This document shows, one piece after another, positions 1,155 to 9,436 of a stretch of DNA of 64,000 bases. Made by a program: the position numbers and the translations under genes. This DNA is from Alphaproteobacteria bacterium. GTDB taxonomy: Bacteria; Pseudomonadota; Alphaproteobacteria; DSM-16000; Inquilinaceae. The notes under the pieces were generated by a model. The model did no database searches and was not told the origin of the DNA. It worked only from the letters and a program-made list of their open reading frames with translations. The stretch is from assembly GCA_028277405.1 (NCBI GenBank), contig JANQGH010000014.1:1-64000 (forward strand), in the 5' to 3' direction. Numbering within the stretch: the stretch's first letter is position 1; the number at the start of each line of letters is the position of its first letter.

Positions 1155-3065
1155 ATGAGACTGTTTGGACCGGCCATGTTCGTCGCGGCCCTCGTGATCC
1201 CATGGGCGATCCTGTGGGCTGGCGCCGGTACGGCGCAGACCTATCAGGAAGCGCCGATGCTGGCCGAGCAGGTCGCGGCCGGCACGCTGCCGCCGGTCGC
1301 TGAGCGGCTGCCGGAGACGCCCGCCACGATCGTGCCGCTGAGCGCCGGCACCTATGGCGGCGAAATCGAATGGCTGGCCGGGCGCGCCCGCGACATTCGG
1401 ATCATGAACGCCTACGGCTATGCCCGCCTGGTGGGCTTCGACGCTGACCTTAACCTCGTGGCCGACATCTTGGAGAGCTACGAGGTCGAGGAAGGGCGCA
1501 TCTTCACCTTCCATTTGAGGCCGGGCCTGCGCTGGTCGGACGGCGAACCATTCACGACCGAGGATTTTCGCTACGAATGGTTCGACGTCCAGCTGAACAC
1601 GGATCTGCGCCCTTTCGGCCCCGACCCTCGGCTCCTGATCGACGGCGAGCGGCCGGAGGTCGAGATCATTGACGATTACACCGTTCGCTATAGCTGGTCC
1701 GAACCCAACCCGCGACTGATCCCGGCCCTAGCGGGCGCCCTGCCGCTCTATCTTTACGCGCCGGCCCATTATCTGCGGCAGTTTCACAAGAACTATGCCG
1801 ACCCCGATGAGCTCGCGGCCGAGGTCGCCGCCGCCCAGCTTCGCGACTGGACGGTTTTGCACATCAGGCGGGGCAACCTTTACGAGGCGCACAACCCGGA
1901 CCTGCCCGTGCTGCAGCCCTGGGTGGTGGCAACACCGGCGCCGAGCCAGCGCTTTCGCTTCGTGCGCAACCCCTATTACCACCGGGTGGACGATCAAGGG
2001 CAGCAGCTTCCCTATCTCGACAACGTCTATGTAAACGTCTCCGACCCGTCGCTGATCGCCGTCCAGACCGGAACCGGGGCCAGCGATCTGCAGGCCCGCC
2101 ATATTCGCATCGAGGACTATGCCTTCCTGGCCCAGGCCGAGGACACGAACCAGTACTATATCGATCTGTGGGAGACGGTGCGGGGCTCGGAAATCGCGAT
2201 CTACCCGAACCTGACGGCCGCCGACCCGGTCTGGCGCGAACTGCTGCAGGATGTCCGCTTTCGGCGCGCCCTGTCGCTGGCCGTCTATCGCGAGGAGATC
2301 AACGAGATCATCTATTTCGGGCTGGGTGAGCTGTCGAACAACACGGTCGTGCCCGCCTCACCGTTTTGGACCGAAGAGTTGGCGACGGCATGGACGCAAT
2401 ACGACCTGGACCAGGCCAACGAACTGCTCGATGAGATCGGCTTGACCGACTATCACCGGGGCATCCGGCTGCTACCCGACGGCCGGCGGCTGGAGATTAC
2501 CGTGGAGACCTCGGGCGAGCGCCGCGAGGAGGTCGACGCCCTGCAGCTAATCGCCGATGGCTGGCGCAGCATCGGGGTCGCCATGTCCATCAGCAACTCG
2601 CAGCGCGACCTTTTCCGCAACCGCATCTTCGCCGGCGAGACCATCATGTCGGTCTGGTTCGGCCTCGACAACGGCCTGATCACGCCGACCACCGTGCCGA
2701 CGGAACTGGCGCCTGTCGACCAGAACTGGCTGCAATACCCGGCCTGGGGCCAATACTGGCAAACCGCCGGTGTGTCGGGCCAGGCGCCGGACCTGCCCTG
2801 GGCGCAAGACCTGGTCGACCTTTACAGCGAATGGCTGATCACGACGGACCGCGATCGCAAGATCGAGATCGTCACCCGGATGCTGGCGATTCATGCTGAC
2901 CAGGTGACGTCGATCGGTCTGGTTCAGGGCCTGCCGCAGCCGATCGTCGTCGCCGACCGGCTGCACAATGTCCCGTTGGAAGCGGTCTATAGCTGGAATC
3001 CCGGCGCCCATTTCGGGCGCTATCGTACCGATACGTTCTGGGTCGACCCCCAGGATGTGAACTGA
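1155..3065 (+). CDS. ABC transporter substrate-binding protein, family 5 (peptide/opine type)
   Basis: A 636-residue periplasmic solute-binding protein of the SBP_bac_5 family, which captures peptides, opines, sugars or similar ligands for an ABC importer. A signal peptide covers about residues 1-28. The family hallmark (FHLRPGLRWSDGEPFTTEDF) lies near residues 130-150, followed by the RNPYYHRVD block and the LSLAVYREEIN motif. The start at 1155 puts the signal peptide at the N-terminus; an in-frame ATG lies at 1122. No permease or ATPase gene is adjacent, so it is an orphan that must work with a transporter encoded elsewhere. It is longer than the usual 500-550 residues of DppA-type proteins. 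Confidence 0.88.
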   Translation: MRLFGPAMFVAALVIPWAILWAGAGTAQTYQEAPMLAEQVAAGTLPPVAERLPETPATIVPLSAGTYGGEIEWLAGRARDIRIMNAYGYARLVGFDADLNLVADILESYEVEEGRIFTFHLRPGLRWSDGEPFTTEDFRYEWFDVQLNTDLRPFGPDPRLLIDGERPEVEIIDDYTVRYSWSEPNPRLIPALAGALPLYLYAPAHYLRQFHKNYADPDELAAEVAAAQLRDWTVLHIRRGNLYEAHNPDLPVLQPWVVATPAPSQRFRFVRNPYYHRVDDQGQQLPYLDNVYVNVSDPSLIAVQTGTGASDLQARHIRIEDYAFLAQAEDTNQYYIDLWETVRGSEIAIYPNLTAADPVWRELLQDVRFRRALSLAVYREEINEIIYFGLGELSNNTVVPASPFWTEELATAWTQYDLDQANELLDEIGLTDYHRGIRLLPDGRRLEITVETSGERREEVDALQLIADGWRSIGVAMSISNSQRDLFRNRIFAGETIMSVWFGLDNGLITPTTVPTELAPVDQNWLQYPAWGQYWQTAGVSGQAPDLPWAQDLVDLYSEWLITTDRDRKIEIVTRMLAIHADQVTSIGLVQGLPQPIVVADRLHNVPLEAVYSWNPGAHFGRYRTDTFWVDPQDVN

Positions 3066-3278
3066 CGCATGGCGATGATCGGGCATGGCCGCCGTGGCAG
3101 TCAGAACCTGGAGTTGCGTCGCCATAGACGCGCAGAGGATTTCTGGAAGAACAAGAGATCACGCCCAAAGACTCCCAAAAAGCTCTTTGTCACTCGATCA
3201 ATAGTGCTAGAAATTCCCGCCCTTAGTCTTTTAATTGCCGTTCGGATTCACTTCTGACCAAATGGAGATAGGGCCATC

Positions 3279-3776
3279 ATGATCGCCTTACGCGCCGCTC
3301 TGGCCTCGCTTGCCACGATCATCCTCGCCGGTTCGGCGCCTCCTCTACAGGCCCAGGACAACTCCGCCTGCGTCGCGTTCGAGGTCTATCCCGATTATGT
3401 CGACGTTCGGCTCGTGGATCTCGGCGAACCCGGCATGAGCATCGGTGACATGCGGGTCGGCGAAGTCCGCCTGCTCGACGACACCGGCGCCGAGGTCGGC
3501 CGGCAGCATTTTCAAGCCACGGTGATCCCCGGCGGGGGTGACGGCATTCATATGCTGGTCGGTCATGGCGATGAGGTTTATGCGAACGGAACGATCACTT
3601 GGAGCGGAAGCTTCACGTTCGCCGATCCGTCGACGCAGGGCCCGCCGGCGGACGATGTCGTCGTTTCGGTCATCGGCGGCACCGGTGACTTCGCCGGCGC
3701 CAACGGCACGCTGACCTGGTCCAATGATGCGCAAGGCCGGCGCGTGGCCAGCTTTGACATAAGCTGCGTTCAGTAG
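3279..3776 (+). CDS. Exported allene-oxide-cyclase-barrel-like protein
   Basis: A 165-residue protein with a signal peptide (about residues 1-25, ending QAQ). The mature domain shows alternating beta strands and the signature VSVIGGTGDFAGANGTL near the C-terminus, which resembles the GGTG.F.GA.G motif of dirigent and allene-oxide-cyclase barrel proteins. In bacteria these are mostly uncharacterised small beta barrels. A purine-rich AATGGAGATAG sequence precedes the ATG. There is one Cys near the start and one near the end of the mature protein, so a closing disulfide is possible. The gene stands alone, and enzymatic activity cannot be claimed. Confidence 0.6.
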   Translation: MIALRAALASLATIILAGSAPPLQAQDNSACVAFEVYPDYVDVRLVDLGEPGMSIGDMRVGEVRLLDDTGAEVGRQHFQATVIPGGGDGIHMLVGHGDEVYANGTITWSGSFTFADPSTQGPPADDVVVSVIGGTGDFAGANGTLTWSNDAQGRRVASFDISCVQ

Positions 3777-3989
3777 GCGTGCCTTAAGCACCGCCCAGGA
3801 TTCACCGATCCACACCAGAGTGGGATGGACAATACCGACGTCCCGACGCTCCCCACGCCAGGTTCGCCGCCACCGTCCGATTGAGAGGTCGCTTACGGAT
3901 TGATCGCCATCACCGCCTTCGCTAGTGAGGACGTGTCAGACCTTCGGCGATGGCCGCCGAGGCCGAACGCGCAGTTACAAGGCTGATTG

Positions 3990-4400
3990 ATGGTGCCTCC
4001 GCGGACCCTTGGGGCGTTGCTGATGCTGGCGCCCGCACTCGCCACGGCACAGACGGCGGACACTATGCCGGAAGACCAGGCGAACGCCGCCGCCGACGGC
4101 CTTGCCCTGGTCGGCTCCGTCTTTGTCACCGGCGCCACGGTTATGGACCTCTGCGGCGACGATGGCGCGTTGGCGGATGACGCGAGGGAAAACCAGGCCT
4201 GCCAGGCCCTGGTCATGGGGCTGTTTAACGGGTTTCTTTACGGCGCGACCTATGGCGGATTCGTCACCTGTGTTCCCGAAGATGTCGGCGCCGACCAGAT
4301 CGTGCCGCTTTTCACGGCTTATGTCCGGGCCGAGGGGCCGGAGGAATGGAACCATGCCGGCGACATGATGGCCTATCTGGCGTCGCTGACGGGCGGCTGA
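3990..4400 (+). CDS. Rap1a/Tai-like small exported protein
   Basis: A 136-residue protein with a signal peptide (about residues 1-22, ending ATAQ). The mature part carries the layout of the Rap1a/Tai immunity family: an early Cys (MDLCGDD), a central Cys followed by a GlyAla-rich helix (CQALVMGLFNGFLYG), then C-x-P-x-x-V-x-x-x-Q and a helical tail (VTCVPEDVGADQIVPL). Family members neutralise type VI secreted amidase effectors in the periplasm, but many relatives are orphans of unknown role. No effector or type VI gene is nearby. A TTG start one codon upstream (3987) is possible; the ATG is preferred. Confidence 0.55.
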   Translation: MVPPRTLGALLMLAPALATAQTADTMPEDQANAAADGLALVGSVFVTGATVMDLCGDDGALADDARENQACQALVMGLFNGFLYGATYGGFVTCVPEDVGADQIVPLFTAYVRAEGPEEWNHAGDMMAYLASLTGG

Positions 4401-4423
4401 GACGGCACGGACCAACCCCGACG

Positions 4424-4579
4424 TCAGATTGGTTGGTCATTGGTTGAGAGGTCGAGCCAGTCCCTTTGCTCGCACGGCAGGACGAGATCGCCGGCCCGGA
4501 CCGCGTCGGTAACCTGGTCGACCGTTCGGGCACCGCATAGGGCGATGGTCGGGCACGGCTTGTCGCGAAAGTCGCACAT
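4424..4579 (-). pseudogene. Aldo/keto reductase C-terminal remnant
   Basis: On the minus strand, about 50 codons ending at a TGA (4426-4424) read PTIALCGARTVDQVTDAVRA followed by LPCEQRDWLDL. This is the typical tail of aldo/keto reductases, where a (I/V)xGxRT(x)xQ element that helps bind the NADP(H) phosphate is followed by a helix and an acidic x-W-L/x-x-L-D element. Nothing upstream on this strand continues the barrel. A matching N-terminal fragment lies on the same strand at 5809-5862, beyond the GH17 gene, so the pair could be the two ends of one disrupted gene. Confidence 0.45.
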
Positions 4580-4938
4580 TGGAGATGCTTGGCCACCGAC
4601 GCACGATCGCTGCTTTCGGGCGCGGCGCAGCCTCTGAGGGCGACGTCTGGAAGCCGATTGCGTTTGGCAATTCGGATGCGCGCATCGTCACATCGTCACA
4701 ACGGACGGCATCGAGAGCGGGCCCGGCTCGCCGCGACATCCCTAAAGGGCCATGTCCGGCCACCGTTCGATGCCATGGCGTCTTATCTATTTAGTAGAAA
4801 TAAAGCAGCGCATTAAAGAATCAAAGGTTGCATCACGCGCACCATCATCATAGTTTAGGAGTGGTAGGAATTCTTGGCGATAAAAGCGTCGGTTGAACTG
4901 CCAGAGACCTCTGAGGCCATCCAAAATGGGAGAAATCA
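4580..4938 (+). other. Gene-free stretch upstream of the GH17 gene
   Basis: No credible gene is seen here. The first half is GC-rich and its open frames are arginine-rich. The second half becomes AT-richer (25 of 60 bases G/C at 4801-4860) and probably holds the promoter of the GH17 gene. A GGGAGA ribosome site at 4928-4933 fits its ATG at 4939. A weak TTGCAT-17-TAGTTT arrangement near 4828-4856 is the only promoter-like pair noticed and is not convincing. Confidence 0.4.
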
Positions 4939-5811
4939 ATGTCGTTCTTCGGCGTTTGCTACTCGCCTTTCCACTGGCGCAAGGCTCTCACGGTTACCGA
5001 GGAGGAAGTGGAAACGGACATGGCGCTGATCGCGCAGAAGTTCACGCACATTCGCACCTACGACTCCATAGGCTATCAAAAATGGAATGTAGACAAAGCG
5101 GCAAAGCACGGTTTGACGGTCGGCCTTGGCGTTTGGATTAACCCCGGCTTACCTCCCGGTGAAAACGAAGCAAGTATCGATGCCGCCGTAGATCAGGCGC
5201 AAGATGCCGCGAAACAGTATGGCGGCAAGCCCGTCATCGATCTCGTAATCGGCAATGAGTTGGATCGGGAAGATCACCACAAATACAATCCTGGCCAGAT
5301 TCTCTCATACATCAACTATGCCAAGAACGCGGCCTCAAAGCTGTCCGACATCAAGCCCCGCGTGACGAGCTGCTTTAGCGGCACGGTCCTGGAAAAGTCG
5401 AATTCGCCCTGGGTCGACGTTATCAAGGCCTGTGAAGATGTCGTGTACCTGACGGTCTATCCTTGGTACGGCCAAGATCCAGACCACAGCTCTCCCGGAA
5501 ACATCGGTCCCAACATGGAGTGGTCATGGAGCCATGGCCTGAAACAGGTGGTCAGACTGGGCAAGACGATCGTGATCGCGGAAATCGGCTGGCCAAGCGC
5601 GGGGCGGAAGGATGCGACACCCGAGAACGAGAAGATCAATTACGAGACCACAAAGCGGTTCTTGTCTGGCGAGACGGACAAGAAGTGGAACCTCGATACC
5701 TTCTGGTTCGAGATGTTCGACGAGGAATGGAAGACCGACGAGGGTCCTCAAGGACCTCATTGGGGACTCTATACAACGGGTCCGAATCCCCATCCAAAGT
5801 TCGACTTCTAG
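4939..5811 (+). CDS. GH17-family beta-1,3-glucanase-like glycoside hydrolase
   Basis: A 290-residue single-domain protein of glycoside hydrolase family 17 (endo-1,3-beta-glucanase/glucan transferase, TIM barrel). The general acid/base is expected at Glu107 in VIGNELDR and the nucleophile at Glu215 in IAEIGWPSAG. The C-terminal FWFEMFDEEWK and HWGLYTT block is also typical. There is no signal peptide, so the enzyme would be cytoplasmic unless exported otherwise, which is odd for a glucanase. Base composition is clearly lower in GC than the neighbours (27 of 60 at 5041-5100), suggesting horizontal acquisition. It lies between two minus-strand aldo/keto reductase fragments. Confidence 0.85.
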   Translation: MSFFGVCYSPFHWRKALTVTEEEVETDMALIAQKFTHIRTYDSIGYQKWNVDKAAKHGLTVGLGVWINPGLPPGENEASIDAAVDQAQDAAKQYGGKPVIDLVIGNELDREDHHKYNPGQILSYINYAKNAASKLSDIKPRVTSCFSGTVLEKSNSPWVDVIKACEDVVYLTVYPWYGQDPDHSSPGNIGPNMEWSWSHGLKQVVRLGKTIVIAEIGWPSAGRKDATPENEKINYETTKRFLSGETDKKWNLDTFWFEMFDEEWKTDEGPQGPHWGLYTTGPNPHPKFDF

Positions 5812-5862
5812 AGCGATCACCGACGCCGGTGTATCGATGCCGTCGAGCTTGATCGTGCGCAT
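5809..5862 (-). pseudogene. Aldo/keto reductase N-terminal remnant
   Basis: The minus strand from an ATG at 5862 reads MRTIKLDGIDTPASVIAL, which fits the first beta strands of an aldo/keto reductase (pattern MxTxxLxGxxxxVSxIALG). The match ends at the base where the oppositely oriented GH17 gene ends; beyond it the reading is merely antisense to that gene. With the C-terminal piece at 4424-4579 in the same orientation and correct order, this suggests one reductase gene whose middle was replaced. The fragment is only 18 codons, so chance resemblance cannot be excluded. Confidence 0.35.
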
Positions 5863-5964
5863 CGGCAACCGCGTCCCATCTCTGGCGTTGCCTGACAAAC
5901 CTATCGAGCGATTGGAAAAGCCGCTAGCCTGGCCCGGCAACCCTCAAGGACCCGGAGCGCCGCC

Positions 5965-6309
5965 TTGCCTGAGATCACCGACTTCCACGCTCATGTCTAC
6001 TACGCTGCCGACACCATCGCGCAGGCGCGGCGCTTGTGCGAGGCAGCGCGGGACCAGTTCGATGTCGAGATGGGGCGGATGCATGAGCGGCCGGTCGGGC
6101 CGCACCCGATGTGGAGCTGTCAGCTCGCCTTTCCGCCGGACCAGTTCGCCGCGGTGGTGCCGTGGCTGGCGCTGAACCGGAACGGGCTGATCGTGTTCAT
6201 CCATCCCGGAACCGGCGACCATTTGGCCGACCACACACGGCACGCGATCTGGATGGGCGGCATGCCGGATCTGAACCTGTCCATTTTTGACGAGGGTAAC
6301 GCCTCTTAG
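5965..6309 (+). CDS. DOPA 4,5-dioxygenase family protein
   Basis: A 114-residue protein of the DOPA 4,5-dioxygenase family (PF08883 type), whose members are small metal-dependent extradiol-type enzymes or relatives of unknown substrate. Expected metal-site histidines are visible in ITDFHAHVYY (His8, His10), GPHPMWSCQ (His47) and VFIHPGTGDHLADH (His80, His86, His90). The length matches bacterial members. No ATG is available, so a TTG at 5965 is the proposed start; the FHAHVYY motif sits close to it, as in relatives. The gene stands alone between the GH17 gene and a convergent aldo/keto reductase. Confidence 0.75.
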   Translation: MPEITDFHAHVYYAADTIAQARRLCEAARDQFDVEMGRMHERPVGPHPMWSCQLAFPPDQFAAVVPWLALNRNGLIVFIHPGTGDHLADHTRHAIWMGGMPDLNLSIFDEGNAS

Positions 6310-6341
6310 CCCTCGCCGTCGGCCGAAAACAGCGGTCGGCG

Positions 6342-7334
6342 TCAACAGTATCCTTCAGGCCCGACCCATTGCTGCCGCGTGTAGCGGTCGCCATGGGCCC
6401 AGCCAACCGGCAGGATACGCTCGATCTCGGCCATGATCTCATCGGTCATCTGAAACGCGCTGCCGGCGGCGCAATCGGCCAAGTGGGTGGCCGAACGCGT
6501 GCCTGGGATCGGGATCAGATGGTCACCGCGCGCCAGGCACCAGGCGATCGCCAAGGCAACCGGCGTCGTGCCTTGGTCCCGGGCGAACGTCTTGAACGGC
6601 TCGAACGCCTTGGCGTTGAGGCTGAAGTTGGGTTCGACAAAGCGCGGATTGTTGCGCCGAAAGTCGGTGTCGGCGAACTTGCCCGGGTCCGGCGTCACCG
6701 CACCGAACATACCGCGACCGACCGGGGAGAACGGCACGAAGGCGACGCCCAGTTCCGCGCAGGCCTGGATCATGCCCAGTTCCGGCAGTCGGGTCCAAAG
6801 CGAGTATTCGCTCTGCACCGCGTCGACCGGCCCGACCGCACAGGCCCTGCGCAGCGAGGCCGGCGATATCTCCGAAAACCCGATGCCGCCGATCTTGCCT
6901 TCCGCCTTCAGCGCCAGCAGTGCGCCCGTGACGTCCTCGATCGGGACGTCGGGGTCTCGCCGGTGGATGTAATAGAGATCGACCCGATCGAGCCCCAACC
7001 GCTTCAACGACTTTTCAAGCTCGTCGCGCAGATGTTCGGGCGTGTTGTTGTAAGTCCGTCGGCCGGTCTCAGGGTCGCGGCAGATACCGACCTTGGTGGC
7101 GATCGTGAACTTGGTGTCGTCTCCGTTCAGAAACGACCCGATCATCCGCTCCGACACGCCCATGCCGTAGACGTTGGCCGTGTCGAGAAAATCGACGCCG
7201 AGATCCAACGCCGCCGCCAACGTCTTATGCGCCTCTTCCTCCGTCGTCGGCCCATAGAAGCCAGCAAAGCTCATACAGCCGAGCCCGACCTCGGAAACCA
7301 TCTTGCCGTCACGCAGTAGCTGGCGCTGTTTCAC
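6342..7334 (-). CDS. Aldo/keto reductase
   Basis: A 330-residue NADP(H)-dependent aldo/keto reductase with a TIM barrel. The catalytic tetrad is intact: Asp51 and Tyr56 in DFLDTANVYG, Lys81 in IATKVG and His124 in YYIHRRDP. The cofactor end shows PIPGTRSATHL near residue 285. The LGLGCMSFAGFYG start and SLKRLGLDRVDLYYIHR segment resemble the AKR13-like group acting on aldehydes or xenobiotic carbonyls. The gene is the only minus-strand gene between the DOPA dioxygenase-like gene and hyuB; about 107 bases separate its start from the hyuB stop, so it may be the last gene of that operon or independent. The substrate is unknown. Confidence 0.88.
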   Translation of the reverse strand: MKQRQLLRDGKMVSEVGLGCMSFAGFYGPTTEEEAHKTLAAALDLGVDFLDTANVYGMGVSERMIGSFLNGDDTKFTIATKVGICRDPETGRRTYNNTPEHLRDELEKSLKRLGLDRVDLYYIHRRDPDVPIEDVTGALLALKAEGKIGGIGFSEISPASLRRACAVGPVDAVQSEYSLWTRLPELGMIQACAELGVAFVPFSPVGRGMFGAVTPDPGKFADTDFRRNNPRFVEPNFSLNAKAFEPFKTFARDQGTTPVALAIAWCLARGDHLIPIPGTRSATHLADCAAGSAFQMTDEIMAEIERILPVGWAHGDRYTRQQWVGPEGYC

Positions 7335-7441
7335 GGTCGTTCCTCTTGCGATGGGGGGTAACGGGGCCTGACCTTCTAGGAGGGCGGGCCGTTGACGTCC
7401 TTCGACAACCGCTTTCTAAACGCCGTTCGCTCCGCGCGCCA

Positions 7442-9436
7442 CTACCCTATGCCCGCGATCTCCTGTGCCAGCTTGCGTTGAAGCTCGTCTTCATTGCCAA
7501 GCGAACGGCGGTTGGCCGCGGGATCAAACAGCGTCGGGACGACATGGCGAAAGAGGGCCTGGCGTTTTTCCTGGCGCACGGCAAGCGGCAGGCGCATCAG
7601 GGCATCGTTCAGCCTGGACACCGCATCGTCGGTGAAAACCCTGTCCCATGCGTCCCTTTCCGGGCCGAAATCGAAGGTGATTTCGTTCGGCTGCTCGATG
7701 ACCGGGCGTTGGGCACGCAGCCATTCCGTGCGGTCTTTATCCACCGCACCGTCGGCGATCGCGACACCGTAATCCCGTTCCGCCGCCTCGACGCTGACGA
7801 AGCCGTAGCGCACGTCCTCCAGCACCGCCTCAGGCGGACGCAGGAACGGATCGCCATAGCCGCCACCGCCGGGGGTGAGGAAGGTGATGGTGTCGCCCTC
7901 TTCCATGGCGACCATATCGATCTTGCCGAGATCCTCTTCCGCTTCGGTACCGATGTTGCGGACCACGCGCATGTTGGCGCCGGGTTTGCCGCCCGCCATG
8001 CCCCAGGGGCGGAAATAGAAGCGCTCCAATCCGCGACCGAGCACTGCGCTGCCGCCCTGGGTGACGCGGAAGGTGAAGGCCAGACCCAAGCCGCCGCGCC
8101 AGCGGCCGGCGCCGGCGGAGTCCCGGTTCAGGCCGTAATGCAGCACGTCGATGCCGGCCTCCAGCTCACTCTTTTCCGCCGGCGTGTTGCGGATGGTCGA
8201 CAGCGAGCCGTCGACACCGTCATAGCCGTCGGAACCGTAGCGCGCGCCGGACCCGACGATGATCGAGTTCACCACCAGCACGTTGCGCGCGCCGGAGCGT
8301 TTGTCGTATTCGGCCAGCACCACCGGCACCATGGCGCCGCCCGAGGGGGTCGGCACGTCCTTGGGCACGGCGCGGGCGAAGGCGCCAGTCACCGCATCGT
8401 TCAGGCGATAGGCCGAGGCGGCGCGCACGCCGGTGGCGGCTGGAAATTCCGGGTCCAGGATCGAGCCCTTGCGGGTGGAGACCGTGATCGGTTCGAACAG
8501 ACCGCCGTTGAACGGCACGGTCGGATCGTGGGTGGTGACGAAGTGCAGCACCCGAACGGTCAGCCAGGCATGGCGCGTGCCCAGGGTCGGCACGTTATAG
8601 GCGCTGGCGACCTGCGGGTCGGTGCCGTCGAAATCGAGATGGATGCGCCCGTCCGTCACCGTCATGGCGACACGAAAGCGCACCGGCACCGGCGTCACCC
8701 CGTCATCATCCATGTAGTCCCAGAAATCGTAGGTGCCGTCGGGGATGCGGCGCAGCACCTCGCGGGCCTTCAAGGCGGCATACTCCAACAGATCGTCCTG
8801 GGCCTGGATCATGGTTTCGAAACCATGGCCCGCGACCATCTCGGCGATCCGTCTGGCCCCCGTCTCCAGCGCCGCGAGCATGGCCGTGAGGTCCTGCACG
8901 TTCAGGTCAGGCGTACGTACGTTGGCGCGGTAGATCGCCAGCACGTCCCGATTCATCTCGCCGCCGCGCACCAGCTTCAAGGGCGGGATCAACAGCCCTT
9001 CCTGGAAGATTTCCGAATTGCTGGGCGAGATGCTGGACGGCACCTTGCCGCCGATATCAGTGGAATGGATGAAGTTGTAGCCGTAGCAGACCAGTTCTCC
9101 GCCGTGGAAGTACGGCCGAATCAAGGTCAGGTCCGGCGTATGGCTGACGAGGCCGGCGCTCATATAGGGGTGGTTGGTCAAGAGAACGTCGCCCTCGCCC
9201 AAGGGCTCGCCCAAGGCGTCCAGCGTCGGCTTGATGTCGTAGTCCAACAGCGCGGAACCGAAATCGCGCGGATTGCCGAAGAAACGGCCAGATCGGGTGA
9301 CCAGGCCGACGGCGAAATCCACCGCCTCCTTCACATAGAGCGAGCGGGCCGTGCGCTTCAGCGTCAGGGCCATTTCCTCCGCCGCGGCAGCGACCTTGGT
9401 GTTCAGGATTTCCAGGCTTACCGGATCGATCTTCAT
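7442..9436 (-). CDS. hyuB: Hydantoinase B / 5-oxoprolinase beta-type subunit
   Basis: A 664-residue HyuB-family protein (Hydantoinase_B, PF02538 type). With HyuA it forms enzymes that hydrolyse N-methylhydantoin or 5-oxoproline with ATP, or act as acetone/acetophenone carboxylases. Visible markers are MKIDPVSLEILNTKV at the start, TNHPYMSAGLVSHTPDL with the following FHGGELVCYGYNFIHSTDIGG, and the C-terminal LTPGGGGYGDP. The start at 9436 is chosen over an earlier in-frame ATG at 9484 because it overlaps the hyuA stop (ATGA), implying translational coupling. It is the last gene of a five-gene run: binding protein, two permeases, hyuA, hyuB. Confidence 0.93.
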   Translation of the reverse strand: MKIDPVSLEILNTKVAAAAEEMALTLKRTARSLYVKEAVDFAVGLVTRSGRFFGNPRDFGSALLDYDIKPTLDALGEPLGEGDVLLTNHPYMSAGLVSHTPDLTLIRPYFHGGELVCYGYNFIHSTDIGGKVPSSISPSNSEIFQEGLLIPPLKLVRGGEMNRDVLAIYRANVRTPDLNVQDLTAMLAALETGARRIAEMVAGHGFETMIQAQDDLLEYAALKAREVLRRIPDGTYDFWDYMDDDGVTPVPVRFRVAMTVTDGRIHLDFDGTDPQVASAYNVPTLGTRHAWLTVRVLHFVTTHDPTVPFNGGLFEPITVSTRKGSILDPEFPAATGVRAASAYRLNDAVTGAFARAVPKDVPTPSGGAMVPVVLAEYDKRSGARNVLVVNSIIVGSGARYGSDGYDGVDGSLSTIRNTPAEKSELEAGIDVLHYGLNRDSAGAGRWRGGLGLAFTFRVTQGGSAVLGRGLERFYFRPWGMAGGKPGANMRVVRNIGTEAEEDLGKIDMVAMEEGDTITFLTPGGGGYGDPFLRPPEAVLEDVRYGFVSVEAAERDYGVAIADGAVDKDRTEWLRAQRPVIEQPNEITFDFGPERDAWDRVFTDDAVSRLNDALMRLPLAVRQEKRQALFRHVVPTLFDPAANRRSLGNEDELQRKLAQEIAGIG

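Follow-up and report, generated by a model that had tools for sequence, protein, structure and literature searches.

A foreign-looking GH17 gene lying between apparent remnants of an aldo/keto reductase gene in an alphaproteobacterial genome

How does a plus-strand gene for a GH17 protein come to lie between two minus-strand pieces that resemble the opposite ends of an aldo/keto reductase (AKR)? This question is raised by a locus within the window, by which we mean the whole 64 kb of alphaproteobacterial DNA that was analysed (contig JANQGH010000014.1, positions 1-64,000). An earlier note on this DNA had proposed that the pieces belong to one broken gene, the middle of which was replaced by foreign DNA. 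Below, we consider the reductase pieces, the GH17 gene and its origin, and the way in which the present arrangement may have come about. The features of the locus are listed in Table 1.

Table 1. Features of the GH17 locus, with positions in the window
Feature	Position	Strand	Remarks
AKR C-terminal remnant	about 4439-4564	-	KPCPTIALCGARTVDQVTDAVRAGDLVLPCEQRDWLDL...; inside ORF 4424-4579
Segment between C-terminal remnant and AT-rich region	4565-4780		host-like GC, about 65%
AT-rich region 5' of GH17	4781-4938	+	158 bases; 42.4% GC
GH17 (beta-1,3-glucanase/transglycosylase family) gene	4939-5811	+	290 aa; PF00332
AKR N-terminal remnant, probable	5809-5862	-	18 codons; MRTIKLDGIDTPASVIAL

Two reductase-like pieces on one strand

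Judged by its sequence, the C-terminal piece is beyond doubt a remnant of an AKR. A profile built from the AKRs of relatives, of the own genome and of plasmids, run against all six frames of the window, recovers it at E=3.6e-9 (32.6 bits), ranking directly after three intact AKRs and followed by a next match of E=1.9. Scored against its own shuffled versions, the piece has 34.3 bits, and the shuffles reach 3.8 bits at most (n=2000 shuffles). AKRs matching the piece are found both in relatives and on plasmids. An aspartate aminotransferase-like origin was considered for positions 4541-4567 (27 nt, 93% in several relatives), and was rejected since this likeness ends after KPSPTIA, while the match to AKRs spans about 40 residues.

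The N-terminal piece is short and of modest score, and is likely to be a remnant of the same AKR. Scored with a matrix of the 16 N-terminal residues in the AKR group closest to it, it ranks second among the 96,140 peptides of 16 residues in the window. Elsewhere, 17 of 550,394 peptides from other fetched DNA reach its score; eleven of these 17 have a Met at the right distance upstream, and all eleven are real AKR members. Could the likeness nevertheless be due to chance, with the C-terminal remnant alone being real and GH17 having been inserted beside a truncated AKR? The score of 17.8, compared to 31-42 for true members, would allow for this, as would the fact that the mixed AKR profile misses the piece. 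Its rank, its correct strand and order, a Met-to-Gly spacing of 8 as in standalone members, and the lack of any comparable Met-preceded non-AKR peptide among the 550,394 all argue against it, and we regard such a coincidence as distinctly unlikely.

The two pieces are collinear on the minus strand, on either side of GH17, in the order and orientation that the earlier note had described as fitting one broken gene. A paralogue within the own genome, a Gfo/Idh-AKR fusion with an open frame of 684 aa (L009, G000:C53:81606-82520), aligns to both remnants at its two AKR ends, and its match to the N-terminal piece has a score that was unmatched in 500 shuffles. The pieces thus do not match different reductases, or none. 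Both also align at the expected ends with Gfo/Idh-AKR fusions in general and with standalone 'IPGVxxPVxRMVMG' reductases; unlike these, the AKR in the window lacks its whole middle, and the about 60 residues that are left are too few to fix its subfamily. We infer that both remnants were once one gene. Assuming an AKR length of about 309 residues, roughly 240 codons (about 0.72 kb) are missing, and about 1.23 kb occupies their place. The AKR core (the Asp-Tyr-Lys-His barrel) is absent from every frame of positions 4580-5808; having no catalytic core, this copy is a pseudogene rather than a reductase. A truncated AKR at another locus (L010) was considered as the missing middle, and turned out to cover the N-terminal half of an AKR instead (profile positions 1-162).

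The GH17 gene and its predicted product

The open reading frame matches the Pfam profile PF00332 with E=1.3e-11 and 45.1 bits, above the cut-off of 28.2. Its protein keeps both catalytic glutamates, E107 (in GNE) and E215 (in EIGWPS), which are invariant in the alignment with relatives. Structure prediction yields a barrel-like fold (pLDDT 70, pTM 0.76) that is weak over residues 265-274, and the top PDB matches of this model are the plant GH17 beta-1,3-glucanases 3ur8 and 4hpg (E about 1e-7); confidence in the predicted barrel is moderate. Among bacterial enzymes, MlGH17B from Muricauda and FbGH17A from Formosa (PDB 6fcg) share with the window protein the GH17 family and the two catalytic glutamates, while the similarity in sequence to such enzymes is weak (E=0.01 for 6fcg).

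No signal peptide is present in the 290 residues, and an in-frame leader peptide sought 5' of position 4939 was not found, a stop codon standing immediately upstream; the start of the protein coincides with the edge of the domain. Because the Bacteroidota homologues have a lipoprotein-type leader and 2-5 extra C-terminal residues, both ends of the window protein look trimmed. MlGH17B is likewise devoid of a signal peptide, and is thought to be cytoplasmic (PMC11005184). Directly readable before the ATG at 4939 is GGGAGA, and a promoter scan recognised no sigma-70-like promoter in the AT-rich region upstream. The enzyme is predicted to be a cytoplasmic hydrolase or transglycosylase of beta-1,3-glucan or laminari-oligosaccharides, and its expression would be driven by its own upstream region. 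The neighbours examined encode peptide-type transporters, hydantoinase-like proteins and further AKRs, none of them recognisable as part of a beta-glucan pathway.

Several other features of this part of the contig deserve mention in their own right. The gene at 1213-3048, for a family-5 solute-binding protein, has a paralogue in the own genome (G000:C87:212751-214586) with 82% DNA identity, compared to 68-71% in relatives, which suggests a recent duplication. A secreted-type ORF at 3279-3776 weakly matches an allene oxide cyclase/dirigent-like barrel, below the Pfam cut-off. At 3987-4400 lies a small, TTG-started ORF, also of the secreted type, with a marginal match to the Rap1a immunity protein (28.0 bits, cut-off 27.7), and no copy of it was seen in the loci fetched from relatives. 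Finally, contig C38 begins with the same 76 bases as this contig (positions 1-76), and part of contig C79 is 87% similar to them; they are probably a repeat at which the assembly broke.

Probable foreign origin of the GH17 gene

Composition, codon use and taxonomic distribution together support a foreign origin of GH17. With a GC content of 54.8% (GC3 70%), compared to a window mean of 65.1% (sd 2.8%; z=-3.6), the gene has the lowest GC among stretches of equal size in the window, and it also has the poorest codon-usage score among window ORFs of at least 200 codons. The low GC pointed out in the earlier note is thus indeed the extreme of the window, though the 45% given there, taken from a 60-base sample, exaggerates it. 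The AT-rich region immediately 5' of the gene probably belongs to the foreign DNA as well.

The gene is missing from all 16 other genomes of the family, none of which therefore carries it in the same order. Searches of 385 Alphaproteobacteria genomes (E<=1e-20) and 398 Pseudomonadota genomes (E<=1e-18), two sets that overlap in part, gave no match apart from the gene itself; the best sub-threshold matches, near 1e-16, are GH17 domains within larger proteins. Among 84,980 species genomes scanned, relatives turned up in Bacteroidota only, at 33-36% identity over the alignment, with uncharacterised Bacteroidota lipoproteins as the nearest ones found, although closer relatives may escape a scan that relies on exact short peptides from one query. 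Collections of phages and viral contigs held no GH17 relative.

Might the segment instead have been wrongly joined from another organism during assembly? Besides the odd composition of GH17, one could point to a genome that is fragmented (101 contigs) with 1.2% contamination, and to the 76 identical bases common to the contig start and another contig. Such a chimera would, however, require the assembly to have gone wrong twice, at points about 1.2 kb from each other within a 65 kb contig, and the GC content of GH17 is intermediate. We therefore consider a misassembly very improbable.

How the reductase gene may have been replaced

At the junction on the N-terminal side, the reductase piece closes with a Leu codon (CTA) whose complementary strand reads exactly as the GH17 stop codon (TAG, 5809-5811), and the piece does end precisely there, as had been noted before. 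An 8-base sequence, TCGATGCC, is common to sites near 4767 and 5834, which is within chance expectation, and no significant repeats were found at the junctions of the insert. The inverted repeat GACGGCATCGA/TCGATGCCGTC (4704/5834) was discarded, as about 0.3 occurrences are expected by chance in this length by our estimate. Signs of a mobile element were equally lacking, with no convincing repeats, no tRNA in the window and no Rfam match at 3000-7500. Insertion of a transposon, an integron cassette or a phage was rejected for want of terminal repeats, a tRNA, an Rfam match, or a phage or viral relative of GH17.

The locus was also compared between genomes. The neighbouring DOPA-dioxygenase gene is present in 21 other genomes, and in none of them does an AKR lie next to it within a distance of about 1.5 kb; comparing 13.5 kb of DNA throughout the family produced scattered matches only. 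The nearest genomes compared are from different genera and show a different gene order at this locus.

So how did the GH17 gene get there? We think it probable that illegitimate recombination brought in a foreign fragment, which replaced the middle of a resident AKR. Linear foreign DNA with a GH17 domain gene would have been integrated either through recombination that was homology-facilitated at one end, or through end-joining at both. About 240 codons would have been deleted from the middle of the resident minus-strand AKR, with about 1.23 kb left instead, and the GH17 stop codon, sitting at the junction, may derive from resident sequence. This mechanism is proposed by resemblance to known products of recombination. 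In Streptococcus pneumoniae, Acinetobacter baylyi and Pseudomonas stutzeri, about 1 kb of foreign DNA takes the place of a comparably long stretch of resident DNA, no mobile element being involved, and homology-facilitated illegitimate recombination on average inserts about 1 kb and deletes 1 kb (PMC3240628). The apparent gain of about 1.23 kb and loss of about 0.72 kb in the window, the latter derived from AKR length, may be compared with the ~1 kb/~1 kb of these transformation-linked insertion-deletions. Unlike those cases, the event in the window is read from the anatomy of the locus alone, and of a homologous end and a junction microhomology of 3-10 bp, both of which were sought at the GH17 insert, neither was identified. 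A bolder proposal would be that one transformation-type event both broke the reductase and made a working cytoplasmic GH17 enzyme out of a leaderless foreign fragment, with a stop codon provided by the antisense strand of that reductase gene; this we find rather unlikely.

Since no insert-free allele, and no intact AKR orthologue at the same locus, was found among the genomes compared, a single event is something we infer. The segment at 4565-4780 complicates the picture: it contains no AKR in any frame, its DNA matches are just 25-28 nt long and at chance level, and its host-like GC makes more than one event possible. Conceivably, the AKR had decayed earlier by ordinary deletion and GH17 arrived later in or beside the dead remnant, in at least one separate event. 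Such a history would be in line with the shortness of the remnants, and with this very segment separating the C-terminal remnant from the AT-rich foreign DNA. Against it stand the exact end of the N-terminal remnant at the GH17 stop and the absence of other AKR debris from all frames, and we consider it unlikely. Replacement of the AKR middle by foreign DNA, as the earlier note had it, is thus borne out by composition, codon use and distribution as far as the foreign origin is concerned, while one gene and one event are how we read the arrangement of the pieces.

As a gene acquisition by replacement, the locus is real and well formed but ordinary, and leaves the general understanding of such events unchanged. 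It would provide a compact natural case of a gene captured without a recognisable mobile element, one gene replacing another, and its GH17, diverged and leaderless, extends a bacterial branch that has been sampled poorly.
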